Assembly: GCA_027064585.1 (NCBI GenBank)
Contig: JAMOPI010000017.1
Coordinates: forward strand, 1 to 47,368
Length of the DNA stretch: 47,368 bases
Source: Candidatus Desulfofervidaceae bacterium
GTDB taxonomy: Bacteria; Desulfobacterota; Desulfofervidia; Desulfofervidales; Desulfofervidaceae
Reading direction: 5' to 3'
Of this stretch, positions 5,382 to 47,301 are shown one piece after another (position 1 is the stretch's first letter; each line of letters opens with the position of its first letter). The notes below the pieces were generated by a model. The model was not told the origin of the DNA. It did not search any database and was given only the letters and a program-made list of their open reading frames with translations. Made by a program: the position numbers and the translations under genes.

Positions 5382-5454
5382 GGTAAAGAGATTATCCCAT
5401 CAAGGAAGAACAAAATAGACAAACCCAACCTGGCGGGCAGGGCAAAAGGGTGAA

Positions 5455-12775: not shown

Positions 12776-13128
12776 CCAAAATCCGTGATTGCCCTCCAAG
12801 AAACTCCAGAAGTATGGCATAATAAAACAATTTTTTTAAAAACATCTTTCACCTAAAAGGTGAGAAAACATTTATCTTTTCCTCAAACCCAATCATAATT
12901 ATAGCGCCTCCGCTCGCTCATGCGGTCAAGGGCAAACCCGCAGGGCGCAGCCTGCGCCAAAGGCGCAGGTCCACAGCGAGCAAAGCGAGCGTAGACCCTT
13001 GACCACCTAACGAGGCCTTGGCGTATAATTTTCTTCAAGTTAAGGAGGAAGGGAAATTCACCAATTTTTGCGGAATACTATAAATCAATCGCGGATTTTG
13101 GGTCAATGTTTAATTTTCAAACAGCCTC
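12776..13128 (-). repeat. Structured intergenic repeat, copy B (about 353 bp)
   Basis: The longest copy, in the opposite orientation to copies A, C and D. The left end CCAAAATCCGTGATTG (12776-12791) pairs with CAATCGCGGATTTTGG near 13086-13101. Beyond that the element extends to TTTTCAAACAGCCTC (13114-13128), the same terminus as in copy A. The core (about 12890-13030) has the complete palindromic arms and the CGAGCGAAGCGAGCG-type runs. Inside is a small hairpin TCACCT-AAA-AGGTGA near 12850, which might terminate the speD-corC transcript. The element starts only 8 nt after the corC stop. Confidence 0.85.
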
Positions 13129-16993: not shown

Positions 16994-17265
16994 CCAAAAT
17001 CCGCGATTGATTTGTACCATTCCGCAAAAATTGGTGAATTTCCCTTCCTCCTTAACTTAAAGAAAATTATACGCCAAGGCCTCGTCAGGTGGTCAAGGGT
17101 CTACGCTCGCTTTGCTCGCTGTGGACCTGCGCCTTTAGCGCAGGCTGCACCCTTCGGGCCTGGCCTTGACCGCTAAGCGAGCAGAGGCGCTATAATTATG
17201 ATTGGGTCTTGAAAGGGAAAATCTCCACAAATTACATAGAATTATGCGGTTAACTATATTTAGCA
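16994..17265 (+). repeat. Structured intergenic repeat, copy C (about 272 bp)
   Basis: Same orientation as copy A. It starts with CCAAAATCCGCGATTG (16994-17009) and keeps the shared segment with TTCCTCCTTA. The complete GC-rich core is at about 17064-17195, with TTATACGCC and GGCGCTATAA as outer arms. It ends in the tail seen in copy A but without the final TTTTCAAACAGCC terminus. The rest of the 16906-17434 gap shows no gene; a loose inverted pair CTACCCA/TGGGTAG flanks 16916-16966. Confidence 0.82.
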
Positions 17266-19466: not shown

Positions 19467-20957
19467 CTACTTTTTCTGTAAGGCATTTCCTTTCACACGC
19501 AACCAGTCACGCATTTGCTGGATGTTTTTGGTTGCATACCAGCGACCAAAAGCAAAAGTACCGTAGTCATAACCCATCATCGCGGCGCTATAACGAATAG
19601 AGTTTTCAAAGAAAAGCCATTGTTCAGCCCACATTCTTTCTATAGGTTCATCAAAGAGTAAACCTTTTTGCGGTAGTCCTTTTTCTACCCCTGTCTGCCA
19701 TGCCTTTAAGAGGATTTTTGTGGCGGTCAGGGTGCGTTTATTCGTTTCTTTTATTGTCTGGTCTAGGCGGCGAAAGTGGCCTGCTACCCAGTTTTGGCTA
19801 TGGCAGCTTTGGCAAATTTTCATCATTCTCTGTCTTCTTTTCTGCATTTCGTCTTTTGAAATGAGAAATTTTACGGCAGGTTCACCGGTTAAACTCACGG
19901 GCAAGGGTAGGCCTTGCTCATTTCTGACCACGCTTGTATCTGGAAATTTGGGCTGAGGATGGGCATAGATGCCAAAAATCCTTATTGCCAAACGGTCGTT
20001 AAACTGATGCGTGCGTGGGGCAATCATATTACCGTTTTCATCTACCAAAAGGCTGGCATGACAGGTAGCACAAGTAGGGGCAGTAAAGTCTTTGCCAATG
20101 ACCCAAGGCGTGTGGTTGAAATTCCAGGATTTAGCTTGCGATTTAAAGATCGCCCCATGTGGGCTGACGCTATAAACTTTATATGCTGGCACATCTGGCC
20201 CTTTATGACATTGAACGCAGGTATAGGGCTTACGGGCCATGGCGATAGAAAAGCTATGTCTGGTATGGCAAGAGGCACAACTACCCACAGAACCATCAGG
20301 GTTAACCCGCCCTACGCCCTGGTTAGGCCAGCCCGTTAAGACAGGAAAGCTCATCTTTCCTAGCTCAGTTTCTTTTTTCCTTAGGCCCTTTACCTGGATA
20401 ATCGTGCCATGACAGGCAAGACAGGCATCTGCCTGGGCTTCTTGGCCCAATGGACTTTGTCTTAGTTTTCCCTCTTGTATTTGGGGCATGGCTATTACTG
20501 TTTCTACCAGCTGTTTATAGACAGGATTACCCATTAAATCTTGATAGGCATGGGCCATTTTGTTTTTGCTATACTGAGAAGTCTCCTTAGCATGACAGGT
20601 AACACAATCTCTGGGCGTAACAATTACATGCACTTGAAAGCCGTTATGGGCAAAGGTGTCTTTATGTATCTGGGGATTAAGGGTATGGCATTCAGCACAT
20701 CCAATGACATGCTTGGCTAGTTTTGCTGGCACTTTGTTTACAGAGATTTTTCGTGCAAGTTTGTCTTTTTTTAGGGCCTCTTTTGGGGTTATCTGGGCGT
20801 GTCTGCTTTTTTCCCAGTTAGCCACAATGCCAGGGGTAACTAGGCGATGACAGTCCAGACATGTTTCTGTCTCCTCACTCACCGGAGCGGCCATACCCAA
20901 AACAGGCCAACTCAAAAGGAAACAAAAAAGTAAAATTAAAATGCGCATCGTTTTCAT
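19467..20957 (-). CDS. Periplasmic octaheme c-type cytochrome, HAO-related
   Basis: A 496-residue secreted cytochrome with a signal peptide (residues 1-23) and eight CXXCH sites starting at C33, C87, C118, C179, C227, C247, C296 and C382. Spacing and the segments TRHSFSIAMARKP and TAPTCATCH match the hydroxylamine-oxidoreductase family and the second octaheme protein at 25749-27110. The C-terminal region reads GYDYGTF: the Asp-Tyr pair remains but the WHGF that follows in the relative is absent, so its chemistry may differ. It overlaps the ferritin-like gene by 4 nt, unlike typical HAO operons. Likely substrates (nitrite, hydroxylamine, NO, sulfite) cannot be told apart from sequence. Confidence 0.88.
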   Translation of the reverse strand: MKTMRILILLFCFLLSWPVLGMAAPVSEETETCLDCHRLVTPGIVANWEKSRHAQITPKEALKKDKLARKISVNKVPAKLAKHVIGCAECHTLNPQIHKDTFAHNGFQVHVIVTPRDCVTCHAKETSQYSKNKMAHAYQDLMGNPVYKQLVETVIAMPQIQEGKLRQSPLGQEAQADACLACHGTIIQVKGLRKKETELGKMSFPVLTGWPNQGVGRVNPDGSVGSCASCHTRHSFSIAMARKPYTCVQCHKGPDVPAYKVYSVSPHGAIFKSQAKSWNFNHTPWVIGKDFTAPTCATCHASLLVDENGNMIAPRTHQFNDRLAIRIFGIYAHPQPKFPDTSVVRNEQGLPLPVSLTGEPAVKFLISKDEMQKRRQRMMKICQSCHSQNWVAGHFRRLDQTIKETNKRTLTATKILLKAWQTGVEKGLPQKGLLFDEPIERMWAEQWLFFENSIRYSAAMMGYDYGTFAFGRWYATKNIQQMRDWLRVKGNALQKK

Positions 20958-21391
20958 CCTTCAATCCCCTCTTCTAGTATCTTCTTTATTTCGGCAAAAA
21001 GTTTGTGATGGCGCTCTTCATCGGCAAGAATATCTTCATAGATCGCCTTTGTCTCTGTATCCCCTTCTTCCTCACATATGGCAATGTGACGCTTATACAT
21101 AGCAATGGCCTCATCTTCAATGGCCATATCTAACTTTATCATTTTTGAAAAATCTGTTTCCCAAATAACTTTACTTGACTTTATGCTCTCCTGTCCACCC
21201 AAGGCCACAATCCGTTTAGAAAAGGCCTCTATATGCTTCATCTCTTCTACCGCAATACGTTCCAACATCTCACGGGCAATAGGATGTGTCTTTTTGGGAA
21301 AGCGATAATGTTGACCCATATATTGAAAAACAGCCCCAATCTCCCGCTCTACGGCTTCGTTAAGAATACCAATAATTCTTTCTTTATTCAT
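20954..21391 (-). CDS. Ferritin-like diiron protein
   Basis: A 145-residue four-helix protein of the ferritin/bacterioferritin-like superfamily. Diiron ligands fit EREIGA (first helix), EEMKHIE (second), AIEDEAI (third) and DEERHHK (fourth), giving the E...ExxH repeats of this fold. It has no C-terminal rubredoxin domain, so it is not a classical rubrerythrin. It should oxidise or store iron, or remove peroxide. It overlaps the HEAT-protein gene by 8 nt and the octaheme cytochrome gene by 4 nt, a strong sign of one transcript. Confidence 0.82.
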   Translation of the reverse strand: MNKERIIGILNEAVEREIGAVFQYMGQHYRFPKKTHPIAREMLERIAVEEMKHIEAFSKRIVALGGQESIKSSKVIWETDFSKMIKLDMAIEDEAIAMYKRHIAICEEEGDTETKAIYEDILADEERHHKLFAEIKKILEEGIEG

Positions 21392-22046
21392 TTCTCCCTC
21401 TCCTTATTTTATCTTTGGCCTCTTTAGCCCATTCGCCTAAGGTCTTTTCACAAAAATCTCCCAGATAAATCCTTACCTTCTCTGAGCGTGCGGTCAAATT
21501 TTCTAAATACGGCAACGCAGGTGCAAAGCCTACTTCCCCCATTGCCCAGGCGGCAAGACCAAGCACTTCAGGGGCATCGCTTTGAAACACCTCTAATACC
21601 TTATCTTTAAAAAAGGCTACATCCTCTTTTAAACGCTTACCCAAACGGCCTATTCCCCATAGACCCCCTTTAACCAAGGGAGGCTCTTCTAAGGCATGAT
21701 AAAGCATCATACTACCATAAGGAGTTATTAGCTCTGGAATGTTAACGATAATTTCCGCAATTGTTTGGGGAGAAAACCAACCGACACCGCCAGATTCATC
21801 ATTCATAGACCAAAAAAGATTGCGTATAAACTCGCGCACCCTATCTTTTTTGCCATCTTGCCACCAAATCTGCATCAATTTGCCGATAGCTTCTACCGCG
21901 GCCCAACAGATCCTCTCATCGGCGTCATAAAGGCAAGAGCGTAAGACCTTCCATCTACGCGGATGGTCTCGGCATAAAGAAATTATTTGCGCATGGTCTT
22001 TTTGTAACAGTAAATTTTTTATTTCTTGTTTAATTTGTCTTTTCAT
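21384..22046 (-). CDS. HEAT-repeat-like protein (DVU0298-like)
   Basis: A 220-residue soluble alpha-helical protein with HEAT/PBS-lyase-type repeats, for example DADERICWAAVEAIGKL (about 42-58) and DAPEVLGLAAWAMGEVG (about 157-173). It resembles a small family known from sulfate reducers (DVU0298-like, from memory). Its function is unknown; such repeats usually form protein-protein scaffolds. No ribosome site precedes the ATG, which lies 9 nt beyond a terminator-like hairpin, so it may depend on read-through from the peroxiredoxin gene. It is the first of a coupled set with the ferritin-like and cytochrome genes. Confidence 0.72.
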   Translation of the reverse strand: MKRQIKQEIKNLLLQKDHAQIISLCRDHPRRWKVLRSCLYDADERICWAAVEAIGKLMQIWWQDGKKDRVREFIRNLFWSMNDESGGVGWFSPQTIAEIIVNIPELITPYGSMMLYHALEEPPLVKGGLWGIGRLGKRLKEDVAFFKDKVLEVFQSDAPEVLGLAAWAMGEVGFAPALPYLENLTARSEKVRIYLGDFCEKTLGEWAKEAKDKIRRGRNE

Positions 22047-22054
22047 TCATAAGC

Positions 22055-22084
22055 AAAAAGGGCTGCCATTTTATGACAGCCCTT
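22055..22084 (-). terminator. Hairpin terminator or attenuator after the peroxiredoxin gene
   Basis: On the minus strand GGGCTGTCA pairs with TGGCAGCCC around a short loop, followed by CTTTTTG. The U-run is short and the next gene starts 9 nt later, so partial read-through is likely. Confidence 0.7.
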
Positions 22085-22090
22085 ATCTAA

Positions 22091-22705
22091 TCAATCCTTA
22101 AAGGCCTCTTCTGGCCTCCAGACCTTCCATACATTGCCTACAAGCGCAGGTCCTGGTTTAAGCACTGTCTTCCCTGGACGCCAGCCAGATGGACATACTT
22201 CTTTGGCACCCGTTTTACGCACATGCTGGTATGCCTGGAGTTGGCGAATAAGCTCACTTACATTTCTGCCTACAGGTGGGGATAAGATTTCTATTGCCTG
22301 GATGACACCATCAGGATCAATAATAAACCTTCCCCGGACATTAATGCCTGCACTTTCATCATAGACACCATATTGTTTCCCAATCTTCCCGCCAGGATCA
22401 GAAAGCATGGGATAAGGCACCCCACCTTCTACCATCTTAGAAAGTTCGCCCTCTTGCCAAATCTTATGGGCAAACTGGGTATCAGTGCTAATGGCTAATA
22501 CCTCTGCCCCTAACTCTTTAATCTCATTGTATTTTACGGCAACCGCCGTAAGCTCTGTCGGTCAGACAAAAGTGAAATCCGCCGGGTAGAAACACAAAAC
22601 TACCCATTTGCCTTTATAATCAGAAAGTTTGACCTTTTTAAACTCTCCGTTAACAAAGGCCATTGTTTCAAAGTCTGGTGCGGGTTGACCTATCATTAAT
22701 GCCAT
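22091..22705 (-). CDS. Peroxiredoxin with selenocysteine at the peroxidatic position
   Basis: A 204-residue AhpC/Prx1-type peroxiredoxin read through an in-frame UGA at 22562-22564. Sec48 occupies the peroxidatic site in DFTFV-U-PTEL, where the family normally has Cys. The resolving Cys is kept in [11 protein letters not shown] near residue 173, so it is a 2-Cys-type enzyme with a Sec-Cys couple. It reduces peroxides in the cytoplasm. The ATG at 22705 has AAGGAGG before it. Translation from the internal methionine at 22435 would lose the active site and is rejected. The promoter carries a PerR/Fur-like palindrome. Confidence 0.95.
22534..22564 (-). promoter_or_regulatory. bSECIS element in the peroxiredoxin gene
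   Basis: Ten bases after the UGA (22562-22564) a perfect 7-bp stem TTACGGC/GCCGTAA (22545-22551, 22534-22540) closes the tetraloop GGTT. The loop begins 17 nt after the UGA. A GGU loop is also the hallmark of the E. coli fdhF SECIS. Confidence 0.85.
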
Positions 22706-22736
22706 TTCTTATCCCTCCTTCTTTATTTTTATTTAC

Positions 22737-22770
22737 ATTTAGAACTATTCTAAATTTTAAATTTTGTCAA
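22737..22770 (-). promoter_or_regulatory. Peroxiredoxin promoter with PerR/Fur-like operator
   Basis: A perfect -35 TTGACA lies at 22765-22770 (minus strand). The 19-bp palindrome ATTTAGAA-3 nt-TTCTAAAT (22737-22755) covers the place expected for the -10, so a bound repressor would block it. Length and half-sites resemble PerR/Fur boxes. The -10 itself is poor. No perR gene is in the window. Confidence 0.55.
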
Positions 22771-22830
22771 GGGTAAATCTGTAGTAGTCTGAACATTAGC
22801 AGCATTAAAAGTAGAAAAATATAGGTAAAA

Positions 22831-23526
22831 TTATTCATCAGGTGGGTGAAAGCGATAGCCTATGCCTGGATGGGTAATGATAAGAGATGGCTTTTCGGGG
22901 TTTAGTTCTATTTTCTGCCGCAGTCTTTGGATGTGAACATCTACGGCACGGCTCCAACGGTAAAGCTTTTTATCAGGCCAAAGCTGCTTTTTAATAAACT
23001 CTCGTCTGAGAATTTCATCTGGATGTGTAGCTAGAAGTTCTAAAAGTTCGTATTCCTTTTGGGTCAATTTAATGAGGTTTCCTTTGAGATATACTTCTCT
23101 TTTCGGCCGCAAGATTTTTAATATACCAAAATCAAGTACTTCTTTAGAGGAAAATGATTTTTGGCTGCGCCGCAAGCAGGCCTTAACGCGAGCGAGGAGT
23201 TCCAGATATTCAAACGGTTTGACCACATAGTCATCTGCCCCACTTTCAAAGCCGCGCAATTTGTCAGAAATGGCATCCCTGGCGGTAAGGATAATAATAG
23301 GCACATCTGATCGCTCCCTTAACTGCTTACAGACCTTAAATCCATCAATATCAGGCAGATTGAGATCAAGGATGACCAAGTCAGGCCGTTTTTTTTCTAC
23401 GGCCTTAATGCCCGCTTCCGCGGTCGTTACACCATAGACCGAAAATCCATCTAATACAAATTGATCTTTTAAAATGGTAAGGATGTCTTCATCATCTTCA
23501 ATGATAAGGATGGTCGTTTCGCTCAT
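22831..23526 (-). CDS. OmpR/PhoB-family response regulator
   Basis: A 231-residue regulator. The receiver domain (about 3-118) has the acidic pair IIEDDED near residue 10, the phospho-acceptor Asp in LDLNLPDIDG (about 55), the switch Thr in ILTARD and Lys in VVKPFEY. A winged-helix DNA-binding domain (about 130-228) ends with RGVDVHIQRLRQK-like spacing and GIGYRF. The sensor kinase gene downstream in the map (upstream in transcription) overlaps it by 29 nt. It probably controls the divergent cytochrome operon, whose promoter has 11-bp-spaced repeats. Confidence 0.93.
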   Translation of the reverse strand: MSETTILIIEDDEDILTILKDQFVLDGFSVYGVTTAEAGIKAVEKKRPDLVILDLNLPDIDGFKVCKQLRERSDVPIIILTARDAISDKLRGFESGADDYVVKPFEYLELLARVKACLRRSQKSFSSKEVLDFGILKILRPKREVYLKGNLIKLTQKEYELLELLATHPDEILRREFIKKQLWPDKKLYRWSRAVDVHIQRLRQKIELNPEKPSLIITHPGIGYRFHPPDE

Positions 23527-25048
23527 TTTCCTCTCCCAAAGGTAAACTTACATTAAACACAATTCCCTCATGCTCTGGCCTACTAATCCAGATTTTGCCG
23601 CCGTGGACCTCAATAAGCCCTTTGCAAATAGCAAGTCCTAAGCCAATACCTTCTTTTTCTTTGCCCCGATAGAATTTTTGAAAAACCAGGTCCCATTCCT
23701 GTTCAGGAATACCAGGGCCAAAATCCTCTATGCTAATGATAACTTGATCCTCTTGCGGCTTGACCTTAACCCACACTTCTTTACCTGGAGGTGAAAATTT
23801 AATGGCGTTACTTAGCAAGTTTAAAATTACCTGCTGTATGCGTTCTTTGTCAAAAGCAAGCATAATATTTTGTTTAGGTGGATGAAAAAGAATTTTTATC
23901 TTCTTTTTCCAAGCTAGAGGAGTGGCCATAAAGATGGCTTCTTCAATTGTTTTTAAAAGGTCATTTTGCTCTTTTTTTAATTCCAGTTGGCCACTTTCTA
24001 ATTTGGCACAGTCAAGCAGATCTCTGATCATCTGAGAGAGTTTATTTACATTTTTCTGGATAATGGCCAAATAAAGTTTATTTTTGCCATCTTTATCTGT
24101 CCGCAAAAGCAACTCTACGGCGCCTTTAATGGCTGTAACCGGTGTCTTTAAATCATGCGTAATATTTGAAAAAAATTCTGATTTAAACTGCTCTGTCTTT
24201 TTCAACTCTTCATAGGCCCTAGTCAATTCAGCCGTAGCCTCTTTTACCTTTTTTTCCAATCCCCTTTGATGCGTGGCCAACCTTTCCACCATCTGGTTGA
24301 AGCTTTGGGCCAGTCTTTCCCATTCATCTTTGGTCTGAAGCTCTACACGTATATCCAAATCTCCCCTTTCAATTTCTTGAGAGGCTTGAATAAAGCTATT
24401 TAAAGGTTTCAAGATGAATACGCGCAGCCAATAGCATAAAAGGAAGAAGACAACGAAAAGGGTACTCATCAAGCCCATAATGAGGAAAAATTGATTTCTC
24501 TTAAATTCGGCAAACACAGAGGCTGCCGAAAAAGAAATACTGATACAACCTGGTATCCTTTGCTTTCTCATCTGCCAATGACAGTTTGCACATTCTCTTT
24601 TGACCACCAATGGGGCAGCATAACGAAACAGAGGACCTGTAGGTGTATAGACAATCTTCCATACCTCCTTGGCCTTGCTTTTTTGAAACTTTAAGATCGC
24701 CTCTTTTTCAAAATTATCTGGTTGATGTATGGACTGATGCGCGTTAATAACCGCAATTTTTATCTGATAAGGAAGCTTTTTTTGAGCAAAATCGGCAATT
24801 TCTCTTGTAAAATGAGAGGGGGTTAAAAACAAATAGCGTTCATTTTTTTTAAGATAAATGCCTCCGTGCAAAGATATCCATTGGCGTGTAAGGGCGATAT
24901 AATGATAAATACCTTCTGCCTGATACCGCAGTTGTTCTATAAAAAACTGTTTCTGTTTTTGGGAAAGCCAGAAAAAGAAGACCAACCAAAATAGGGCCAA
25001 AACGAGAAAGAAACAGAGGATGATTTTTTTGCCTAAAGTAGAAAGCAT
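23498..25048 (-). CDS. Sensor histidine kinase with periplasmic c-type heme (DUF3365/Tll0287-like) domain
   Basis: A 516-residue membrane kinase from ATG 25048; a TTG at 25096 would add 16 residues. TM1 is about residues 8-28 and TM2 about 187-208. The periplasmic part holds RECANCHWQ at 151-159, a c-type heme site, ending in RIPGCISISFS as in DUF3365 sensor domains. HAMP is about 211-263. The dimerisation helix has the phospho-acceptor His298 in ITHDLKTP. The ATPase domain has NLLSNAIKFSP, DFGPGIP and GIGLGLAICKG. It should sense redox state or a small ligand at heme (inference) and phosphorylate the coupled regulator. Confidence 0.9.
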   Translation of the reverse strand: MLSTLGKKIILCFFLVLALFWLVFFFWLSQKQKQFFIEQLRYQAEGIYHYIALTRQWISLHGGIYLKKNERYLFLTPSHFTREIADFAQKKLPYQIKIAVINAHQSIHQPDNFEKEAILKFQKSKAKEVWKIVYTPTGPLFRYAAPLVVKRECANCHWQMRKQRIPGCISISFSAASVFAEFKRNQFFLIMGLMSTLFVVFFLLCYWLRVFILKPLNSFIQASQEIERGDLDIRVELQTKDEWERLAQSFNQMVERLATHQRGLEKKVKEATAELTRAYEELKKTEQFKSEFFSNITHDLKTPVTAIKGAVELLLRTDKDGKNKLYLAIIQKNVNKLSQMIRDLLDCAKLESGQLELKKEQNDLLKTIEEAIFMATPLAWKKKIKILFHPPKQNIMLAFDKERIQQVILNLLSNAIKFSPPGKEVWVKVKPQEDQVIISIEDFGPGIPEQEWDLVFQKFYRGKEKEGIGLGLAICKGLIEVHGGKIWISRPEHEGIVFNVSLPLGEENERNDHPYH

Positions 25049-25053
25049 TTTAT

Positions 25054-25091
25054 TGTTACAAAAAATTAACAAAAAATTAACAAACTTTAAC
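25054..25091. promoter_or_regulatory. 11-bp direct repeats between kinase and cytochrome operon
   Basis: TTAC/TTAAC units recur near 25055, 25066, 25077 and 25087, with spacing 11, 11 and 10 bases and A-rich gaps. Direct repeats once per helical turn are the usual sites of PhoB/OmpR-type regulators. They sit in the shared upstream region of the two-component genes and the NapC-octaheme genes. Confidence 0.5.
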
Positions 25092-25169
25092 CGCAATTTT
25101 ACATCTTTTTATGCTAAAAGCAAATAAAGACAGAATAATTTTAAAGAAATCAGCCAAAGGAGTAAAGAT

Positions 25170-25745
25170 ATGCATTGCCGAGAACAAAAAGGGGGAACGT
25201 TCATTGGCCTTCTCATCGGCATATGTATCACCATCATCTTAGCCCTTTTAGCCGGTGCACAAGTCAGGTCTACCAATAAAATAAGCTTTTGTGCCTCCTG
25301 CCATGAAATGCAACCTTTCTATAAAACATGGCAGATGGCTGCCCATGGTACATCAAAAATGGGAGTAATAAGGGCCAAATGTGCTGATTGTCATCTCCCT
25401 CATAAAAGTTTTATGGGTTACCTCATCGCTAAGGTCAGATTTGGGATTAATGACTATTGGGCGCATTATTTTAGAAAAACAGAAACCTTGCCATCAACCT
25501 GGATAGCTGAATGGGAAGGAACAAAACCTAAGGCCCATAAAGGTTATGAGTCAGGATGTAAGGAATGTCATAAAAATTTAGTGGCACCTAATATTCCTTT
25601 AAAGGCATTTAAGGCGCATCGGGCTTATACATTGGGGGAAACGGATAAAACCTGTATTTCTTGCCACCATATGGTGGGACATGGCGATTTACTTGCCTTT
25701 ATGAGGGAGAAAGTAAAGAAAGAAAAAACAAAAATTAGGAGGTAG
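25170..25745 (+). CDS. NapC/NirT/NrfH-family membrane tetraheme cytochrome c
   Basis: A 191-residue membrane quinol-oxidising cytochrome. One N-terminal anchor spans about residues 10-30 and four CXXCH sites start at C41, C71, C130 and C162. The segment CASCHEMQPFYKTWQMAAHG is typical of the NapC/NrfH group. It passes electrons from menaquinol to a periplasmic partner, here most likely the octaheme protein encoded 3 nt downstream. This pairing occurs in epsilonproteobacterial HAO systems. An AAAGGAG site lies before the ATG. Confidence 0.92.
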   Translation: MHCREQKGGTFIGLLIGICITIILALLAGAQVRSTNKISFCASCHEMQPFYKTWQMAAHGTSKMGVIRAKCADCHLPHKSFMGYLIAKVRFGINDYWAHYFRKTETLPSTWIAEWEGTKPKAHKGYESGCKECHKNLVAPNIPLKAFKAHRAYTLGETDKTCISCHHMVGHGDLLAFMREKVKKEKTKIRR

Positions 25746-25748
25746 GAG

Positions 25749-27110
25749 ATGAGGGTGAAAAAGAAGCGTTTGGGCATTAGCCTCTTAATTGCTTGTTTGG
25801 CTGTTTTGGTAAGCGTATCCCTTTGGGCAGATACGCCAAAGGTTGGTTATCCCAATTTAGCTAAGACAAAAGAAATTGTGATTAAGCGGGGGTTTTCACC
25901 TGAAGCGATAAAATGTATTGAATGTCATGCCCAAAAGACGCCTGGTATTGTAGAGAGCTGGAAGAAAAGTCGCATGGCCCATGCAGGTGTTTCTTGTTAT
26001 GATTGCCATGTGGTTCCTAAAAGCTCTCCGATGGCCAGTCAATGTGAGGGTGTAAAAAATACCAATATTTATACTTCCCCTATGGTATCACCAAAGACAT
26101 GTGCAAAATGTCATCCCACCGAGGTAGAGCAATTTGAAAAGAGTGGTCATGCAAGATTAGCCGGTAAACCAACAGAAAAATTAGTTAAGTTAATCTATGA
26201 CCTTGAAGGCGGAGGATTTATTGGGATCCCTAAAAGGGATACCAGAAATTGGGCCTCACGGGCGGTAAGTTGTCAGATGTGTCACGGAGGTAAAATTGAA
26301 CTTGGTCCTGATCACAAGCCGATTAAAAATACCTGGCCCCAAAGTGGTATCGGTACCAGGTATCCAGATGGTGGTATAGGTAACTGTACAGTCTGCCACA
26401 CCCGGCATACCTTTAGTATCGCTGAGGCCAGAAAACCAGAGGCATGCGCCTCTTGCCATTTAGGACCCGATCATCCTGACATTGAAATTTACTACGAAAG
26501 CAAACACGGACAGATATTCCTTGCTGAGGGAGAAAAATGGAAATGGAACAGCGCTCCTGAAACGTGGGAACCAGGAGATTACACTGCCCCTACCTGTGCT
26601 ACATGTCACATGAGCGGCATTGGCGCCTTAAAGACAACGCATAATGTTAACGAACGTTTAAAGTGGGATCTGGTACATAAGAAGAGCGTAGTGAGAAGTG
26701 GTGAAAGAGGAGACGGAGAAAAAGGACGTAAGTTAATGGTCCAGGTATGCGCCAACTGCCATAGCACTTTACATACTCAACAGTTTATGTCTTCCCTAGA
26801 CAATGCAGTTGCCCTTTACAATACATATTGGGACGGCGCGGTGAAGATGTTTAATGACTTAAAGGCTAAAGGTTTACTTAAGAAAGACAAGTGGTCTGAC
26901 GGATATCAGGAACTTATGTATTACCTCTGGCATCATGTAGGACGCCGGGCAAGACACGGTGCGGCGATGAACGGGCCTGACTACGCCCACTGGCACGGTT
27001 TCTTCCAGATCTTTCAGGTTTATAAGGATATGCAAGCCATTTATCAATACCGCATAAAGCACAATAAGATAGAAGAACTGAGCACGGTTATGTCTAGTGC
27101 ACCGTATTAA
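25749..27110 (+). CDS. Octaheme hydroxylamine-oxidoreductase-like cytochrome c
   Basis: A 453-residue secreted cytochrome with a signal peptide ending near residue 27 and eight CXXCH sites starting at C56, C83, C118, C175, C213, C233, C283 and C334. Near the end, [12 protein letters not shown] (409-420) corresponds to the HAO active-site region with Tyr412. With the NapC-type partner it most resembles epsilon-HAO (HaoA), proposed to work reductively, for example nitrite to hydroxylamine or ammonium. Nitrite, NO or hydroxylamine detoxification is an alternative. It is a paralogue of the cytochrome at 19467-20957. It ends at a strong terminator. Confidence 0.92.
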
Positions 27111-28424: not shown

Positions 28425-29163
28425 CGGTTGCCCTCGCTAAGGTAATGACAAATACTGCCTTTGCCCCGGCCTGCATTAAAACCCGTGCACACTCGTTGAC
28501 GGTGCTGCCCGTAGTAAAGACATCGTCTATAAGAAGCACACATTTGCCTTTAATTCTCTCCTTCTTTTTTACTGCAAAACTGCCTCGCACATTTCGTTCA
28601 CGCTCAGCCGCAGTTAGACCCACTTGTGGCGGTGTAGCTTTAACCTTCCGTAAAACGCGGGCCTCACACCTTAACCCCAACTTCGCCGCTAAATCTTTCG
28701 CAATAAGCAGACTTTGATTATATCCCCTCTGCCGTAACCGCTTAATGTGTAAGGGCACAGGGAGGATGACTTCAGGTTTTATCTTTTGAAGAAAGCTCCC
28801 TAAAAAAAACAATATTTCTCTTACCCAAAATTTCCGTAGGGCTATATTCTCTTTAAATTTAAAGCTAATGATGGCCTCTCGTACCGGCCCTTCATAAAAA
28901 AATACAGACCGGGCAGCCTTAAAAAAGGGCGTATCTTTAAGACATTCTCCACAAAGATGCATTTCACCCAAATGGTAAGGTCGCCCACAAAGAGGACAAA
29001 ACGGAGGTAAAACCGGTTTTATCTTACTTTCACACTCAAGGCAAAAAAAACGATTACCCTTTACATACCCTCCACAGCCAGAACAAAGAGGAGGGAAAAA
29101 AAGATCAACTATTTGAGAGATCGATGATATTAAGCCCTTACTTACCCAGGCCTTTATGGACAT
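28414..29163 (-). CDS. comF: ComF-family phosphoribosyltransferase-like protein
   Basis: A 249-residue ComF-like protein. The N-terminal part has a double zinc finger with CxxC pairs at CSGCGG, CLECE, CPLCGR and CGECL (about residues 24-80). The C-terminal part has a phosphoribosyltransferase fold with the PRPP loop LLIDDVFTTGSTVNECA near residue 215. In naturally competent bacteria ComF helps in DNA uptake across the inner membrane; here no other competence gene is adjacent. It overlaps the GGDEF gene by 10 nt. Confidence 0.9.
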   Translation of the reverse strand: MSIKAWVSKGLISSISQIVDLFFPPLCSGCGGYVKGNRFFCLECESKIKPVLPPFCPLCGRPYHLGEMHLCGECLKDTPFFKAARSVFFYEGPVREAIISFKFKENIALRKFWVREILFFLGSFLQKIKPEVILPVPLHIKRLRQRGYNQSLLIAKDLAAKLGLRCEARVLRKVKATPPQVGLTAAERERNVRGSFAVKKKERIKGKCVLLIDDVFTTGSTVNECARVLMQAGAKAVFVITLARATDAV

Positions 29164-30098
29164 CGCCTCCGGTTCACCATATACATACTCTTTTCTTTAA
29201 ATTTTTTAACATATTCCTTTAACTCCGTGGCAATCTTTACTACCTCACCATAGTGTCTAAGCCGAAACCCCTCACAATTTTTCACAATGGCAATAGCTAC
29301 GGTCATGATAGGAAATTCTCTTATATTACCTTGTCTATCTTTAGAAATAATCTTACCCCTTTCTCTGTCTTCTTCGTCATAAAAGGAGGGAATAATTTCA
29401 TCAAAATAAGAAATAATCTGCTCGGCTAACGTTTCTGCCTTATCCGGAGGCACGATAAAAACAAAATCGTCTCCCCCTATATGTCCCACAAAGGCAAGTT
29501 CTCCTGGAATTTCATTAACCAGATTGGTCAACACCCGAGCAAGCATCTTGATTACTTCATCCCCCCGGGAAAATCCGTATTTGTCATTATAAGCCTTAAA
29601 ATTATTGAGATCCACATAGCCTAAGGCAAAATCCTTTTTTTCTTCTATCAAGGTCTGGATGATATAAATGATGCTTGTATTTCCTGGAAGTTTAGTCAAA
29701 GGATTTGCGTCTAGGGTGCGGCTAGTTCTAAGCTTTATCAACTCCAACCGTTTGATACAGGTTATTTCTTCTAAAGGACGTAAGAGAAAATCGTCTATAG
29801 GTATTTTTTTAAAATCAAGCTTTTTTAGACCTTTATGGGTGCATATAATCACGATAGGAATTTCTATCAAAAAGTTAGTCTTTTTAATGGATTTAATCAC
29901 CTTTTCAACCGGAACAGAAAAGGGGAAATCCAGGTCCAGGATAATCGCATCAGGAATGCTAAGATAGAGGCTTTCCATAAATGCCCTCTCGTTTTCGTAA
30001 AAACAGAGATCACATCCAAGTTTATTCAGACACTGGTGAAAAAAGGATCTGTCTTCTTTTTGCACAAGAAGAAAGGCCTTTCTTTTATTCCCTTCCAT
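29154..30098 (-). CDS. GGDEF protein with receiver-like N-terminus
   Basis: A 314-residue protein from ATG 30098, just after the stop of the HDOD gene; the frame runs further upstream but that part would overlap HDOD. Residues about 3-120 look like a receiver-type domain with DAIILDLDF, perhaps carrying a phospho-acceptor Asp. The GGDEF-type domain (about 140-300) has FVGHIGGDDFVFIV, so the active-site signature is GGDDF. The RxxD inhibitory site is absent. Cyclic di-GMP synthesis is possible, but it may be a binding or degenerate form. It is part of a cyclic-di-GMP-related operon. Confidence 0.78.
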   Translation of the reverse strand: MEGNKRKAFLLVQKEDRSFFHQCLNKLGCDLCFYENERAFMESLYLSIPDAIILDLDFPFSVPVEKVIKSIKKTNFLIEIPIVIICTHKGLKKLDFKKIPIDDFLLRPLEEITCIKRLELIKLRTSRTLDANPLTKLPGNTSIIYIIQTLIEEKKDFALGYVDLNNFKAYNDKYGFSRGDEVIKMLARVLTNLVNEIPGELAFVGHIGGDDFVFIVPPDKAETLAEQIISYFDEIIPSFYDEEDRERGKIISKDRQGNIREFPIMTVAIAIVKNCEGFRLRHYGEVVKIATELKEYVKKFKEKSMYMVNRRRCP

Positions 30099-30100
30099 GA

Positions 30101-30928
30101 CTAAACTTCGCCCCAATCTGATGTATATAGCGTGCGGTCCATTTCTGTAATAATGTTTTCTAAAACTTCCGGGGTAAGATTTAAATATTGGCAAACTTCA
30201 CTCTCTATCGTAGGAATAACATTCCCCTTTTTTAACCGATAAATATGCACCAGCATATCTGCTAACTCTATAACTGCTGCTAAAATTGGGTAATGTTTTG
30301 CCCGCTTCACCCGATGGTGATAAACAAGAGGCTCTTTCAACACTAAAGGAAAATGCCAACGTTCTACCATCCATTCGTTAATGGTATCGTGCGCCAGGCC
30401 TAATACTTCCATTTCGGCCTCATAATCCGTACAATGTCTTTGTCTTTTCACTGCCTCTATCTTAGCGGCAAATTCAGGGAAATAATTCTTGATGACTACC
30501 TTACCCATATCATGTAAAAGCCCAGCTACCGTCATTTCATCCTTTTCCTTAATATTTAGTACTTTCGCCACAATCCCTGCCGTCGTGGCACAGTCACAGG
30601 CATGATACCAAAGGGCCTCTATTTCGGGTGTAATTTCACCAAAGACCACTGTACTAATCAAAAGTCCTCTAATAACATCTATTCCTAACAGCACAATTGC
30701 ATGTTTAAGTGAGCCAATCCTGTTGGGAAAGCCATAAAAAGGTGAATTGACCAAACGCAGCACCTTCGCACTTAAGGTCATATCTTTACCTATGACCTCA
30801 CTGATTTTTGCCGGTGATACATCTTTTTTTTCTGTTAACTTCCACGCCTCATGCACAACTTTAGGAATAGCTGGCAATCTTTCTAAAACCTGTTCTTTAA
30901 ACAACTCTGGATTTATTTGAAATTTCAT
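30101..30928 (-). CDS. HDOD domain protein
   Basis: A 275-residue signal-output protein. An HDOD fold (about 15-210) begins with LERLPAIPKVVHEAW and includes MTLSAKVLRLVNSPFYGFP, and the later LLHDMGKVVI keeps an HD pair. HDOD proteins act in regulation of motility, biofilm or cyclic di-GMP systems, usually as binding rather than catalytic modules. The start at 30928 is chosen because GGAAGG lies before it and it begins just after the preceding stop; an in-frame start at 31009 would overlap. Confidence 0.88.
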   Translation of the reverse strand: MKFQINPELFKEQVLERLPAIPKVVHEAWKLTEKKDVSPAKISEVIGKDMTLSAKVLRLVNSPFYGFPNRIGSLKHAIVLLGIDVIRGLLISTVVFGEITPEIEALWYHACDCATTAGIVAKVLNIKEKDEMTVAGLLHDMGKVVIKNYFPEFAAKIEAVKRQRHCTDYEAEMEVLGLAHDTINEWMVERWHFPLVLKEPLVYHHRVKRAKHYPILAAVIELADMLVHIYRLKKGNVIPTIESEVCQYLNLTPEVLENIITEMDRTLYTSDWGEV

Positions 30929-31269: not shown

Positions 31270-33696
31270 TTAAGAATTTAGTTTCAAAGAGGTATTATAG
31301 GCTATAACTCTGTTACGGCCCTGCTGTTTAGCCATATAAAGGGCCTTATCTGCCAATCTTATTACCTTATTAAGATCATCGCTGTCTTCAGGATAGGCTG
31401 CTACTCCTATGCTAACTGTAATTCTAATCTTTTTTTTATCCAAGGTTTCAAACTCCGCCATCTCCACTGCTCGGCGTAACTTTTCGGCCACCTTTATTGC
31501 ATCCTTTTTACTAACCTCTGGGAGAAAAACCAATATTTCTTCTCCACCATAACGGAAAACCAAATCAGAAGCCCTTAAGTTCCTCACCAAAACATGAGCT
31601 AACTTCTTTAATACCAAATCCCCCGTTTGATGTCCATAAGTATCGTTGATTTTTTTAAAGTGATCCAAGTCAAGCATCAATACCGCTGCCTTTCCTTGTT
31701 GTCTTTTTAAGAAAAGATTCCACTTATTAAGATATTCGTCCATAAATCGCCGGTTATATAAACCAGTTAGTTGGTCACGCAAGGCTTGCTGCCTTGCTAC
31801 GGCTATAGCCCGCTTGGCCTCAAGAATTGGGGCTACTTCTTCTAGATATTTTTGAATAAAAGGTATCTTATGTAAAAATTCTTCTTGGTGTTCCTTTTTC
31901 TCTATAATCTTTAATACTGCCCCTACACGTTCTCCCATCATAATGGGTAGGCAATAATGAAAATATCTATCTAGGTCAATATAGGCGTAGCTACACACAT
32001 AAGGATAATCTAGAGAGGACAAGGCCTCACTATTTCTCTTTACTGGACAAAGATTACAATCAATGAGCAAATCAGGGAAAATCTTGTTTTGAATCTCTTG
32101 ACTTTCATTAACCATAAGCTCAAACCGATTTTCACTATTATTGACTTCATAGATTAAAAAATTCTTTATCCCAAAATGAGCTTTTAAAAACCACTTTAAA
32201 TATTCGTATATTTCTTCTTTGTCTCCAAATGTTTCTAAAATTTCCCGAAAGCGCGTCATTTCCACTAATTCATTTACTATCCGTTCTACACGTAAAATAA
32301 GGGACTCACCTGGTTCCTCTCTTGGATTATTTAACATCTCTGAAAGTTTGGCATTAACTTTATGGAAAAAGTTACTTAAGATCTCAAAAAGATTGTCATA
32401 CCAACAGATAAGACCGTTTATCTCGTTACGAGTGCGCCTTTGCATTACCGGACAAGATTGGCAAGTACCATATTTACTTAAAAAAACACAGCTTCCCCGG
32501 TAAGGAGAGGCTAAGGCAAGATCACCAGTAACCATAAAACAAATTTTATCACGCCTACCATAGACTGGACATGCCTTGTTGGTACAACCAAGTATTTCCC
32601 AACACTGAAGTTTATACGAAATGGGTAAGGGTTTAGAAAAATCACCCCTTAGCACCGAAGCGATACTTTCTTCTAATCCCGCAATCTTTTTAACAATGTG
32701 ATTTAATCCTCCCCATATAATCAAGCCTGTTACAACAAAGGCGGAGAAGAACATAAAACTCAAGATAAGAAGGATATAATTCCGTTTATGAATGAGAGAA
32801 TAAAGGTTTTTAACCAAAAAAACCTGCGCAATCTTTTCCCCTTGAAAATCAAAAAGGGGAAAAGACAAAAAAAGATAGTTTCCCTCTCTAATTATATCTT
32901 TATTGTTTTTATTTACCTCTTTTTTAAATTTAGAATAAAAAGAAGAAGGAAAGTATAAAGTTGTTATATACGAACCTTGCTGATTTACCTCTCCTTTCTC
33001 TAGGATTGCTTTTTGAACATTAGGGGTTAAAAGGGTAATGATTCCTTCATTTTCCGTAAAAGGATATTTTTTAACTACTTCTTTAAAATCTATAACCGCC
33101 TCTACTAAACCAATCCATTCTATTTCCCCATTAGAACTAACTTTAGAAACAGGAGCAACAGCCCTAAGTTTTACTCCGGTTGGACTAACTTCAATGCCAC
33201 TTAAAAAGGTATGGGTCTTGCTTACAGTAGTAACAATTTGGGGGATATTGCCTTTTTGAGGCTCAGTGCCTTTGACATTAAGAAAAGATTCCAAGGGGTA
33301 TAAAAAAAAACCAAGTGAGAAACTATAATTTTCTTCCTTTTCCCTTAATTCATTTAAAAGAAAAATCGCATATTTATCTAATGCTTGCTTATCTTTATGG
33401 TAAATATATTCCTTAACTTTCTCATTATGAGAAATTAAAATGACTATCTGCTCTAGCATTCTTCTTTTTTCATTAATAGCATTTAAAAATCTAATTTTTT
33501 CGGCTGTAAGTTTATCTAAAGCCAATTTTTCAATAAAATAATTACCTCCAAAATACAAAATGGCCACTGAAACAGAAAAACCTAAGACAAAGAGTAAGAT
33601 AAGAGGATAAAAAATTTCTTCTTTTATAGACCGATGGTAAAAAAGCAGTTTTAAGCGGCGAAGAAAGTAATTAAAATTTTGTTGGAAGCTAAACAT
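31270..33696 (-). CDS. Membrane diguanylate cyclase with Cache-like sensor, Cys-rich (two-CW-like) and GAF-like regions
   Basis: An 808-residue protein. TM1 is about residues 28-52, a periplasmic sensor of about 250 residues follows that looks like a double-Cache domain, and TM2 is about 305-330. The cytoplasmic part begins with a Cys-rich region: CWEILGC, ACPVYG, KICF, GSCVF and CQSCP (about 360-415), as in two-CW-type proteins. A GAF-like stretch (about 470-640) has its own CNLCP. The GGDEF domain (about 650-800) has RYGGEEILVF with an RASD inhibitory site five residues before it. It should make cyclic di-GMP in response to a periplasmic ligand and possibly a metal or redox signal. Confidence 0.87.
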   Translation of the reverse strand: MFSFQQNFNYFLRRLKLLFYHRSIKEEIFYPLILLFVLGFSVSVAILYFGGNYFIEKLALDKLTAEKIRFLNAINEKRRMLEQIVILISHNEKVKEYIYHKDKQALDKYAIFLLNELREKEENYSFSLGFFLYPLESFLNVKGTEPQKGNIPQIVTTVSKTHTFLSGIEVSPTGVKLRAVAPVSKVSSNGEIEWIGLVEAVIDFKEVVKKYPFTENEGIITLLTPNVQKAILEKGEVNQQGSYITTLYFPSSFYSKFKKEVNKNNKDIIREGNYLFLSFPLFDFQGEKIAQVFLVKNLYSLIHKRNYILLILSFMFFSAFVVTGLIIWGGLNHIVKKIAGLEESIASVLRGDFSKPLPISYKLQCWEILGCTNKACPVYGRRDKICFMVTGDLALASPYRGSCVFLSKYGTCQSCPVMQRRTRNEINGLICWYDNLFEILSNFFHKVNAKLSEMLNNPREEPGESLILRVERIVNELVEMTRFREILETFGDKEEIYEYLKWFLKAHFGIKNFLIYEVNNSENRFELMVNESQEIQNKIFPDLLIDCNLCPVKRNSEALSSLDYPYVCSYAYIDLDRYFHYCLPIMMGERVGAVLKIIEKKEHQEEFLHKIPFIQKYLEEVAPILEAKRAIAVARQQALRDQLTGLYNRRFMDEYLNKWNLFLKRQQGKAAVLMLDLDHFKKINDTYGHQTGDLVLKKLAHVLVRNLRASDLVFRYGGEEILVFLPEVSKKDAIKVAEKLRRAVEMAEFETLDKKKIRITVSIGVAAYPEDSDDLNKVIRLADKALYMAKQQGRNRVIAYNTSLKLNS

Positions 33697-36245: not shown

Positions 36246-36587
36246 TTATATCTCTAATAAAAGCTTAATTTTATTTAACACATCCCTTACTGCCTCTTTA
36301 GGCAAGGTACAAATCAACTCTGCTCTTCTTGCCTGCCAATCTAAGCTTTTCACCTGATCGGCCAAAACCACTCCTGTTACAGGCAGACCTTCAGGAATCA
36401 ATACCTCAAAGGGATAACCCTTTACTTGATTAGTAATAGGACACATAAGGGCTAATCCTACCTTTTTATTATACACCAACGGAGAGACCACTAAAGCTGG
36501 TCGTCTTCCTGCTTGTTCATGCCCTGCTTGTGGATTCAGCGTAATCCAAACCACATCTCCCCGTGCAGGCACATAATTGGTCACCAT
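36246..36587 (-). CDS. mazF: MazF/PemK-family toxin (mRNA interferase)
   Basis: A 113-residue PemK/MazF toxin. The characteristic RGDVVWITLNPQAGHEQAGRRPALVVSP segment (residues 9-36) forms the sheet with the catalytic Arg. The later CPITNQVKGYPFEV loop and DQVKSLDW helix with the Thr/Ser-equivalent residues are typical. It cuts mRNA at short motifs when freed from the antitoxin. It overlaps mazE by 7 nt. A single copy lies just downstream of mutS. Confidence 0.92.
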   Translation of the reverse strand: MVTNYVPARGDVVWITLNPQAGHEQAGRRPALVVSPLVYNKKVGLALMCPITNQVKGYPFEVLIPEGLPVTGVVLADQVKSLDWQARRAELICTLPKEAVRDVLNKIKLLLEI

Positions 36588-36820
36588 ACCTCCCTTCCTA
36601 CTTTAGGACCTATATCAATTTCTTTATGCCTGTTTTCTTCCGTAACCTTAGCTAAAAGTTGCTCCAGGCTAGTTGTTTCTTTAATCGGGGTAATAACCAA
36701 TCGCCCCTTTTCTAAAGACATCTCTACTTCCGTGTCTTTTTTCAACCCCACTTCTGAGGCAAACACCTTAGGAATACGTAAGGCCAAACTATTTCCCCAT
36801 TTCTGGATGCGTGTACGCAT
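36581..36820 (-). CDS. mazE: MazE-family antitoxin
   Basis: A 79-residue AbrB/MazE-type antitoxin. The start at 36820 gives MRTRIQKWGNSLALRIPK, the normal MazE N-terminus with the DNA-binding loop, and has AGGAGG five bases before it. An in-frame ATG 54 nt upstream is less likely. The C-terminal 30 residues should wrap MazF. It probably represses its own operon. Confidence 0.9.
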   Translation of the reverse strand: MRTRIQKWGNSLALRIPKVFASEVGLKKDTEVEMSLEKGRLVITPIKETTSLEQLLAKVTEENRHKEIDIGPKVGREVW

Positions 36821-36878
36821 TTTTTCCTCCTTTGTATCTACAAAAAAGATACGGTAACTTACCTCTTCTGTCAATATC

Positions 36879-39464: not shown

Positions 39465-39496
39465 TTTTTAGCATTAAAAAAGAGAGAAGAAAAGGC

Positions 39497-39796
39497 CCAA
39501 CATCCGTAATTATCCTGCAAAAAATCTGCAAGTATGCCATAATAAAACAATTTTGAAAAACATCTCTCACTTAAAAGATGACCCAAAATCCGCGATTGAT
39601 TTATAGTATTCCGCAAAAATTGGTGAATTTCCCTTCCTCCTTACTTAAAGTAAATTATACGCCAACGCCTCGTTAGGTGGTCAAGGGTCTACGCTCGCTT
39701 CGCTCGCTCTGACCTGCGCCAAAGGTATTTTTTAAAAAATTGCTTATTACAGCACACTTACGGGATTTCTTGTAGGGTAATCGCGGATTGTGGGTG
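39497..39796 (+). repeat. Structured intergenic repeat, copy D (rearranged)
   Basis: Two modules are joined. Bases 39497-39582 match the tail module of copies B and E (CATCCGTAATT, then GTATGCCATAATAAAAC). At 39583 the front module begins with CCCAAAATCCGCGATTG. It includes the TTCCTCCTTA stretch and the first half of the GC-rich core (TTATACGCC, GTGGTCAAGG, CGCTCGCTTCGCTCGCT) and then breaks off near 39725 in A/T-rich sequence. Its far end TAATCGCGGATTGTGGG lies near 39778-39794. It fills most of the 39465-39836 gap and abuts the next gene's upstream region. Confidence 0.78.
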
Positions 39797-39836
39797 ATTT
39801 TTGGTCCTTGACAGTAACTCAAGAAATTTTTAAGTT

Positions 39837-41543
39837 ATGCCAATTATTCAAAATAGACGGCAAACTCTTATGAAGCTAGATTTGACCAAACCCATAGAGA
39901 TAGCAGAAGATATTTTCTGGATAGGCTATGTTGTCCCTAATGACCCTTTCCAGTGCCACGTTTACCTCATAAGAAACGAAGAAGAAAGTATCCTAATTGA
40001 CCCTGGAAGTATGATTACTTTTCCTGTCGTTTTAGAAAAGCTGTTTCAGGTTACACCCCTTAGAAACATAAAGTACATAATACTGCACCATCAAGATCCA
40101 GATATTGTGGGTTGCTATTCAACCTTAGAGTCTTTATTTCCAAAGGGTGAAAGGTTCATTGTTACTCACTGGAGAACAAAAACTCTTCTTAAGCATTACC
40201 AATGGAAAACTCCTTTTTACTTGATAGATAGGCACGACTGGAAGCTAAAAGCAGGAAATAGAGAACTGGAGTTTGTTTTTACTCCTTACGCTCATTTTCC
40301 TGGAGCGTTCTGCACGTTTGATAAAAAAACAAAAACTCTCTTTTCAAGCGATATTTTGGGAGCTATTTCAGATAAATTCTATCTATTCGCTAAGGATGAC
40401 GAAGAATATTATAAGGGCGTTGAACTTTTCCATAAACACTACATGCCAAGCAAGCTAATACTCAATCAAGCTTTAGACAAAATAGAAGAAAAAAATCCTG
40501 AATTAATAGCACCTCAGCACGGAAGTATTATCAGAAAAGAAATGATAAAACCGATAATTAACCGTTTGAGATTACTTGACTGCGGCCTTTATATGCTTGA
40601 TGATAAAGAAAGCAATATCTTTATCTTAAATAACATTGATGAAATCCTTAAAAGATTGTTTAAATCAATTATTTCTTCCTCTGAGTTTAGTGCAATTATT
40701 GAAAAGCTCTACAAAAATATTAAACAAGAAATACCAGAAGTCAAAAAGATTGTCATCGTTGGAAAGGCCAAACGGCTGTCAAAAAGCAATACCTTAGTTC
40801 TGGAAGTGGACGAGCATGGAGTTGACGAAAAATTTGTAGAGGGGAAAGTGAGGTTATCCGACTTCACTTACAAGGAAAATCTGGAAACTGAAGAAACACA
40901 AGTAGGAAGTATCTATATATTTTCCCCACAACTATCTAAAAAGAAATTAGAGTTTTTCCGTCTCCTTTTCAAACATATAAAATATGCTTTGGCTGTAAGT
41001 CTTGAAAAAGAAATAAATTACGCACTCCTTGAAAGAGAGAAAGAAAAACTTCAAGAACAGGTAATAATTGACCCTCTAACTAAGCTACATAATAGACACT
41101 ATCTATTTGATTACCTAAGAAAAACTGTGAAAAAGTCTATCAAAAGCGGCTTTCCCCTTTCTTTAGCCGTTATAGCTATAGATTTTTTCAAAAAAATAAA
41201 CGACATCTACGGACACTTAATAGGCGATTGTGTTTTGAAAGAACTTGCTGAAATCTTAAAGAAATCTTTCAGGACTTTAGATTGTGTTGCAAGGTATGGG
41301 GGAGAAGAATTTATTGTGGTTTTACCGTTTTCACCGTTAAAGTATGCATGTAAAAAGATGGAAAAAATCAGAAAAGTTGTAGAACAACATGAATTTTGTG
41401 GAAGAAAAAAACTTAAATTCACCATTAGTGCTGGAGTTACAGAATATAAGTACAATGAACCTATAAGAACATTTATAAAAAGAGCAGATGAAAATCTATA
41501 TAAGGCTAAACATAATGGAAGGAATAAAGTTGTATGTAGGTAA
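39837..41543 (+). CDS. ODP (diiron, metallo-beta-lactamase-like) diguanylate cyclase
   Basis: A 568-residue cytoplasmic protein. The N-terminal domain (about 15-260) is a metallo-beta-lactamase fold of the flavodiiron/ODP type: the ligand run is HHQDPDIVG near residue 82 and later His/Asp residues include the DIL segment and PQHGS near 243. ODP domains of this type can bind oxygen at a diiron site. A linker of about 140 residues leads to a GGDEF domain (about 405-565) with ARYGGEEFIVV and an RTLD inhibitory site five residues before it. It lacks a flavodoxin domain, so it is a sensor rather than a reductase. Codon use is AT-rich compared with neighbours. The start may be 39870. Confidence 0.83.
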   Translation: MPIIQNRRQTLMKLDLTKPIEIAEDIFWIGYVVPNDPFQCHVYLIRNEEESILIDPGSMITFPVVLEKLFQVTPLRNIKYIILHHQDPDIVGCYSTLESLFPKGERFIVTHWRTKTLLKHYQWKTPFYLIDRHDWKLKAGNRELEFVFTPYAHFPGAFCTFDKKTKTLFSSDILGAISDKFYLFAKDDEEYYKGVELFHKHYMPSKLILNQALDKIEEKNPELIAPQHGSIIRKEMIKPIINRLRLLDCGLYMLDDKESNIFILNNIDEILKRLFKSIISSSEFSAIIEKLYKNIKQEIPEVKKIVIVGKAKRLSKSNTLVLEVDEHGVDEKFVEGKVRLSDFTYKENLETEETQVGSIYIFSPQLSKKKLEFFRLLFKHIKYALAVSLEKEINYALLEREKEKLQEQVIIDPLTKLHNRHYLFDYLRKTVKKSIKSGFPLSLAVIAIDFFKKINDIYGHLIGDCVLKELAEILKKSFRTLDCVARYGGEEFIVVLPFSPLKYACKKMEKIRKVVEQHEFCGRKKLKFTISAGVTEYKYNEPIRTFIKRADENLYKAKHNGRNKVVCR

Positions 41544-47027: not shown

Positions 47028-47301
47028 AAACCCAAAATCCGTGATTGCCCTCCAAGAAACTCCAGAAGTATGCCATAATAAAACAATTTTTTTAAAAAAC
47101 ATCTTTCACCTAAAAGGTGAGAAACATTTATCTTTCCCTCAAGCCCAATCATAATTATAGTGCCTCCGCTCGCTCAGCGGTCAAGGGCAAGCCCGCAGGG
47201 CGCAGCCTGCGCCCTTGGCGTATAATTTACTTTAAGTAAGGAGGAAGGAAAATTCACCAATGTTTGCGGAGTACTATAAATCAATCGCGGATTTTGGGTT
47301 T
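47028..47301 (-). repeat. Structured intergenic repeat, copy E (274 bp)
   Basis: The cleanest copy in the window. Its termini are 20-bp inverted repeats with one mismatch: AAACCCAAAATCCGTGATTG (47028-47047) and the complement of AAACCCAAAATCCGCGATTG (47282-47301). The order of modules is as in copy B but the core is shortened by loss of one CGAGCG-rich arm. No clear target duplication is seen at the edges. The last 67 bases after it, and the 46975-47027 stretch, show no gene. Confidence 0.87.

Follow-up and report, generated by a model that had tools for sequence, protein, structure and literature searches.

The window analysed here, a stretch of 47,368 nucleotides from a Candidatus Desulfofervidaceae bacterium, carries on its forward strand a gene (39837..41543) that encodes, in a single open frame of 568 codons without interruption, a protein of 568 amino acids. 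The order of its domains is ODP, then GAF-like, then GGDEF, and there is no obvious membrane part. As to the frame, a pseudogene reading is unsupported, since all 568 codons are open. The ATG at 39870 (Met12) may be the true start of the gene; residues 1-12 had a pLDDT below 50 in the AlphaFold2 model, and nine of the 11 homologs in the alignment start at residues 11-14, at Met codons that we chose ourselves. The full-length model reached a mean pLDDT of 86.4 with a pTM of 0.58, so that the relative placement of the domains in it is untrustworthy. An earlier note on this DNA had described a flavodiiron-type metallo-beta-lactamase domain without flavodoxin joined to a GGDEF domain with an intact inhibitory site, and this was confirmed by Pfam and by the RTLD sequence at residues 479-482. 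While the anatomy and the transfer proposed in that note stood, its account of catalysis proved incomplete, and the GAF-like domain, Ala447 and the breadth of the family had been overlooked.

The sensor domain (PF19583, residues 38-229, positions 39948..40523, + strand) was identified by Pfam with an E value of 1.7e-60 and a score of 204.7 bits, against a curated cut-off of 27.2. This profile is necessary and not specific, as it matched 12 of 14 well-known control genomes, nine of them above the cut-off, and thus does not by itself make an ODP sensor. Similarly, the fold by itself does not decide the assignment, since in the AlphaFold2 model the matches to ODPs (Z 26.6-27.8; among them 6qwo at Z 27.8, rmsd 2.8 over 240 aligned residues, and 6r9n, whose title names a peroxy diiron species, at Z 27.5) were nearly tied with those to flavodiiron proteins (Z 24.4-26.3). 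At the level of sequence, what decides is the predicted ligand pattern together with the domain company, and the closest solved sequences agree, these being the ODPs 6qrq (E 8.7e-31) and 6qnm (E 1.3e-21), while the best flavodiiron chain gave 1.3e-11. By alignment, the putative ligands lie in the motif H85-x-D87-x-D89 (HQDPD, 40089..40103) and at H153 (40293..40295), D172 (40350..40352) and H228 (in PQHG, 40518..40520), all on the + strand. These six residues have identical counterparts in both solved ODPs and are invariant across the 12 rows of the alignment (the query protein and 11 homologs), and the ODP domain departs at none of the 95 columns that are invariant in 14 relatives. The same ligands, HxDxD, H, D and H, are those of the ODPs of Treponema denticola (TDE2498) and Thermotoga maritima (6qnm, 6r9n, 6qrq, 6qwo), and the likeness of the sensor half to this type, as proposed earlier, was borne out. 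The solved ODP chains are of 253-255 aa, and the protein of T. denticola is described as an oxygen sensor for chemotaxis (PMC7666581), whereas the present ODP is fused to a GAF-like and a GGDEF domain. By analogy with these relatives, it would bind iron and O2.

The middle domain (about residues 255-400, 40599..41036, + strand) belongs to no Pfam family: over residues 252-409 of six members, Pfam gave no plausible family, and no GAF family at E values up to 5. Folded alone, it was modelled with a mean pLDDT of 82.5. Its best fold match was to residues 220/226-399/400 of DosP (Z 11.3-11.8, rmsd 4.6-5.0 over 137-140 residues), followed by the GAF domain of ptsP (3trc, Z 10.5, rmsd 3.3 over 133) and by 4g3k (Z 10.4), and GAF chains at Z 8-10.5 made up a large share of the list. 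Foldseek likewise returned eight chains at E values of 4.2e-4 to 9.9e-4, mostly from GAF-containing proteins. We consider the domain to be GAF-like on these moderate scores, which suggest no ligand. E. coli DosP, of which residues 226-400 gave the match at Z 11.8, is itself a c-di-GMP enzyme that senses oxygen and contains a GGDEF part; its sensor is a haem-PAS domain and its output an EAL phosphodiesterase. In the AlphaFold2 model, a predicted long helix (residues 368-410, 40938..41066, + strand) leads from the middle domain into the GGDEF domain.

The GGDEF domain (PF00990, residues 410-564, 41064..41528, + strand, E 2.3e-41) is 44-45% identical to that of Caulobacter PleD over 162-163 residues, and has in common with it the RxxD and GGEEF motifs. 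The former is the I-site R479-T-L-D482 (41271..41282, + strand), intact and five residues before the GGDEF motif, and the latter, also intact, spans residues 488-492 (41298..41312, + strand). By alignment, PleD D327, K332, N335 and D344 correspond to A447, K452, N455 and D464. The features of an active cyclase are thus present as to GGEEF and the guanine-binding N455 and D464, but the metal-binding Asp is absent: PleD has D327, and the query copy has an Ala encoded by the codon GCT at 41175..41177 (+ strand) at the position of this catalytic Mg2+ ligand. D327 of PleD is stated to coordinate magnesium ions (PMC12943098), and a review (PMC7288161) counts it, together with N335 and D344, among the residues essential for activity.

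The loss of this Asp is isolated, the rest of the GGDEF domain being as conserved as in sister proteins. The domain departs at only two of 32 columns invariant in 14 relatives (A447 and I457), while for each of the relatives 0-6 departures were counted over 30-36 columns of this kind. The GGEE motif is intact in 34 of 42 aligned ODP-GGDEF proteins, and all 33 besides the query carry Asp at the D327 site. Similarly, a set of 118 distinct GGDEF rows held 108 canonical ones, 106 with Asp and two with Ala, both of the latter being pieces of the query gene. These two sets (33 proteins and 106 domains) overlap. Because some of the 118 rows come from loci retrieved through the peptide DFFKKIND, which lies only two residues away from the site, and because the number of loci was limited, the constancy of Asp is valid only for the domains fetched. 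Since Ala447 stands in place of the catalytic Mg2+ Asp, little or no c-di-GMP synthesis is expected, and we predict from the sequence that the query copy is impaired or dead as a cyclase. A single substitution in a conserved domain also fits a recent inactivation or some residual activity, and, the Ala codon being one base from an Asp codon, it could be a sequencing error. As regards the name diguanylate cyclase given to this half, the motifs behind it (GGEEF and RxxD) are kept, while cyclase activity is doubtful for the query copy because it lacks the Asp. Three PilZ matches above the cut-off and six other places matching the GGDEF part make a c-di-GMP circuit likely in the genome. Two GGDEF-type genes lie nearby in the window, one for a protein of 808 aa (31270-33696) and one of 346 aa with a GGDDF motif (29154-30194).

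The ODP-GGDEF architecture is not unique to this bacterium and occurs in at least six phyla. In the ODP-profile searches, the best 6-8 candidates per genome were taken in the large phyla and domains were assigned on up to 30 loci per search. Within the phylum of the query, matches at E <= 1e-30 were present in at least 33 of 395 genomes and the fusion in at least four (G000, G034, G196 and G282), and nine matching places without a fetched locus held open frames of up to 399 aa. At least 36 of 298 Campylobacterota genomes had ODP matches; the 30 loci assigned in that search comprised nine ODP-GGDEF proteins with intact motif (one being the query locus, L160), 12 ODP-kinases, six solo ODPs, two degenerate ODP-GGDEF proteins and one frame-split copy (L193). 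Of 136 Aquificota genomes, at least 21 gave matches at E <= 1e-60 and at least 14 had a GGDEF domain downstream, one of them partial (L228). Of 296 Spirochaetota genomes, at least 21 had ODP matches, two with a canonical GGDEF domain and three with a degenerate one. Going by the record titles, fusions were also seen in Acidobacteria (three loci), Actinomycetota and Fibrobacteria (degenerate). The outputs confirmed by Pfam after an ODP included, besides GGDEF, HisKA/HATPase (L177, L181), SpoIIE with TPR (L243, L247), class III cyclase (L263, L264) and a degenerate GGDEF with a response regulator (L250, L253), and ten further kinase-type rows (L177-L188 group) were assigned from ATPase motifs only.

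Among the 42 ODP-GGDEF proteins, 39 keep the six ligands; of the 34 whose GGEE motif is intact, 30 have RxxD. Three Campylobacterota copies (L168, L191 and L192) have lost their diiron ligands, with NEDY[ED]Y in place of these, together with the GGDEF motif, and have kept RxxD; genome G397 also carries an intact copy (L010). When the flanks of 11 loci were compared at E 1e-10, they showed no conserved gene neighbourhood that might hint at function: neighbours were shared only by L010 and L013, by L011 and L012 and, in the case of a single gene, by L008 and L009, a GGDEF piece of L016 aside. In this last locus, an Actinomycetota ODP-GGDEF gene is split at 4605-5717 by an opposite-strand ORF of 370 aa, transposase-like by eye, and a GGDEF piece follows at 5762.

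That the gene was acquired horizontally from an Aquificota-type donor, and so from another phylum, is well supported by its place in the trees together with its patchiness and codon usage. A tree of full proteins with 41 rows placed the query inside ten Aquificota sequences (a group of 11 rows, 100/99, with an inner one of seven rows, 100/99), its pairing with L219 being weaker (89/89), and an earlier tree, of ODP domains in 69 rows, joined it to the single Aquificota row then included (100/98). The label Aquificota derives from the record title of L008 and from the search of the phylum to which its genome belongs. The Aquificota and Nautiliaceae proteins L219, L222, L008 and L009 have the same domain order and ODP parts 70-86% identical to that of the query, but they keep the catalytic Asp that the query is without. 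The gene was not found in any of the five nearest relatives (four of the same family and one of the same order, two being 81-82% complete), and G001 and G002 gave weaker matches, the one in a frame of 393 aa and the other in one of 402 aa (L155), which has a flavodiiron pattern. The GC content of the gene, 0.339, lies below the mean of 0.425 (sd 0.031) for 39 window ORFs, itself included, and it is more AT-rich than its neighbours, as had been remarked. The codon-usage distance that the earlier note had proposed was computed with these 39 author-chosen ORFs as the reference, and its ratio of 4.18 ranked first among them, well ahead of 2.22 for the next ORF. With the nesting, the absence from those relatives and the first rank among codon outliers, the suspicion of transfer is upheld.

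The adjacent genes, which we take to be mutS, a peptidase gene, a DUF2905 gene and the like, inform on the contig. Since mutS and the peptidase gene match a same-genus genome at 76% and 73%, the contig itself is not foreign. In the relatives, mutS on the one hand and the peptidase gene and the small gene preceding it on the other sit in different surroundings, so that an empty site is not readable. Plasmid carriage was considered and rejected: the ODP part matched 39 plasmid records, and those listed (20 of the 39) were all below 60% identity. As claimed earlier, the gene does adjoin a repeat, of which a copy with inverted arms lies within the upstream 300 bases. It occupies 39496..39802, the outer limits being approximate, with the arms at 39574-39597 and 39779-39802, its ends being inverted (CCCAAAATCC...GGATTTTGGG) and its core about 140 bases long. 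Further copies lie in the window at 12776-13113, 16994-17133 and 47030-47299, and across the genome (1.92 Mb) the core is matched at >=84% in no fewer than 40 places, this copy included, a lower bound because the scoring covered 40 of the 143 first-look candidates. Further places match the arms. The repeat, which may be a MITE or an element of another kind, is not specific to the ODP-GGDEF gene.

We believe that the ODP-GGDEF family most likely senses O2 or iron via its diiron site and drives GGDEF dimers. In such a mechanism, the six-ligand site would bind iron and then O2, the resulting change would pass via the GAF-like domain and the long helix (368-410) to the GGDEF pair, and the pair would thereby set the rate at which c-di-GMP is made, RxxD serving for feedback by the product. 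In the query copy, the GGDEF domain would have been kept as an output that binds c-di-GMP at the I-site, or GTP, under ODP control, and the protein may read c-di-GMP through this site rather than make it. Starting from the observed domain order, ligands, I-site, missing Asp and donor clade, we give somewhat better than even odds (about 55%) to the reading of the protein as an ODP-GAF-GGDEF sensor of Aquificota-type origin whose output is now c-di-GMP or GTP binding or, less likely, a silenced cyclase. For the query protein we infer metal and O2 binding, dimerisation, the direction of the response and the receptor role.

Among the other readings, an active oxygen- or iron-gated diguanylate cyclase, with Ala447 as a sequencing or assembly error or as a tolerated change, seems rather unlikely. 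Although K452, N455, D464 and GGEEF are all present, the GGDEF domain is not drifting and 33 relatives are canonical at the D327 site, the constancy of Asp, found in the 33 other intact-motif ODP-GGDEF proteins and in every one of the 106 other canonical domains, counts against this reading, as does the inclusion of D327 among the essential residues in a review (PMC7288161). Less likely still is a recently acquired gene that is being lost, its cyclase killed by one mutation after the transfer and serving no selected role. The open frame across 568 codons and the near absence of departures from invariant columns (0/95 in the ODP, and only A447 and I457 among 32 in the GGDEF domain) argue against such decay, even if the foreign codon usage, the single catalytic loss, the lack of the gene in the five nearest relatives and the repeat copy directly upstream would be in keeping with it.

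A flavodiiron-type enzyme reducing O2 or NO, and not a sensor, is hardly credible here, although the fold is shared at Z scores nearly tied with those of ODPs. We take a flavodiiron protein to be defined by a flavodoxin domain and a seven-ligand site, HxExDH. The five Pfam families listed for the ODP-GGDEF protein include neither a flavodoxin nor a rubredoxin, Asp replaces the Glu, and residue 90 is Ile, so that there is no His at the next flavodiiron position; the flavodiiron-like L155 has Glu and His where the ODP-GGDEF family has Asp and a hydrophobic residue. Moreover, the ODP is followed by the GAF-like and GGDEF domains, and its relatives precede kinases, SpoIIE and cyclases. Returning to the sensor with a binding output, it can be extended, tentatively and at less than even odds, to a view of the ODP as a general oxygen or iron input in bacteria of several phyla, which has been coupled to no fewer than four kinds of output (a GGDEF domain, a histidine kinase, a phosphatase of the SpoIIE type and a class III cyclase), in which the query would be a natural conversion to an oxygen-gated c-di-GMP receptor by the loss of one Asp with RxxD kept, and the Campylobacterota copies without ligands and motif would be a further step.

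The hemerythrin fold is unrelated to the ODP fold. Nevertheless, the hemerythrin-GGDEF protein Bhr-DGC of Vibrio cholerae resembles the query in having a diiron oxygen or redox domain N-terminal to GGDEF and, unlike it, is catalytically active, the diferrous form being ten times more active than the diferric one (PMC9388753). In the literature found, oxygen-controlled c-di-GMP enzymes use haem or hemerythrin domains. The ODP diiron site would be a third chemistry, spread over at least six phyla, and would extend oxygen-to-c-di-GMP signalling. A copy without the Asp and with nearly all else conserved offers a natural test of whether a GGDEF domain may pass from making to reading c-di-GMP. An ODP-GGDEF protein appeared in none of the titles or abstract beginnings of the open-licence literature searched, to which the main ODP paper does not belong, and the fusion may be in print.

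As to the remainder of the window, a search with Rfam at gathering thresholds found as structured RNA only a tRNA, away from the gene, and a promoter scan gave 10 sites against 7.7 (sd 3.1) in shuffled sequences, a difference within the scatter that supports no claim. By eye, the region 19467-27110 holds multihaem cytochrome-like genes with repeated CxxCH motifs around a two-component pair (22831-25096), and a MazF/MazE-like pair (36246-36874) lies between an amidase-like gene and mutS.
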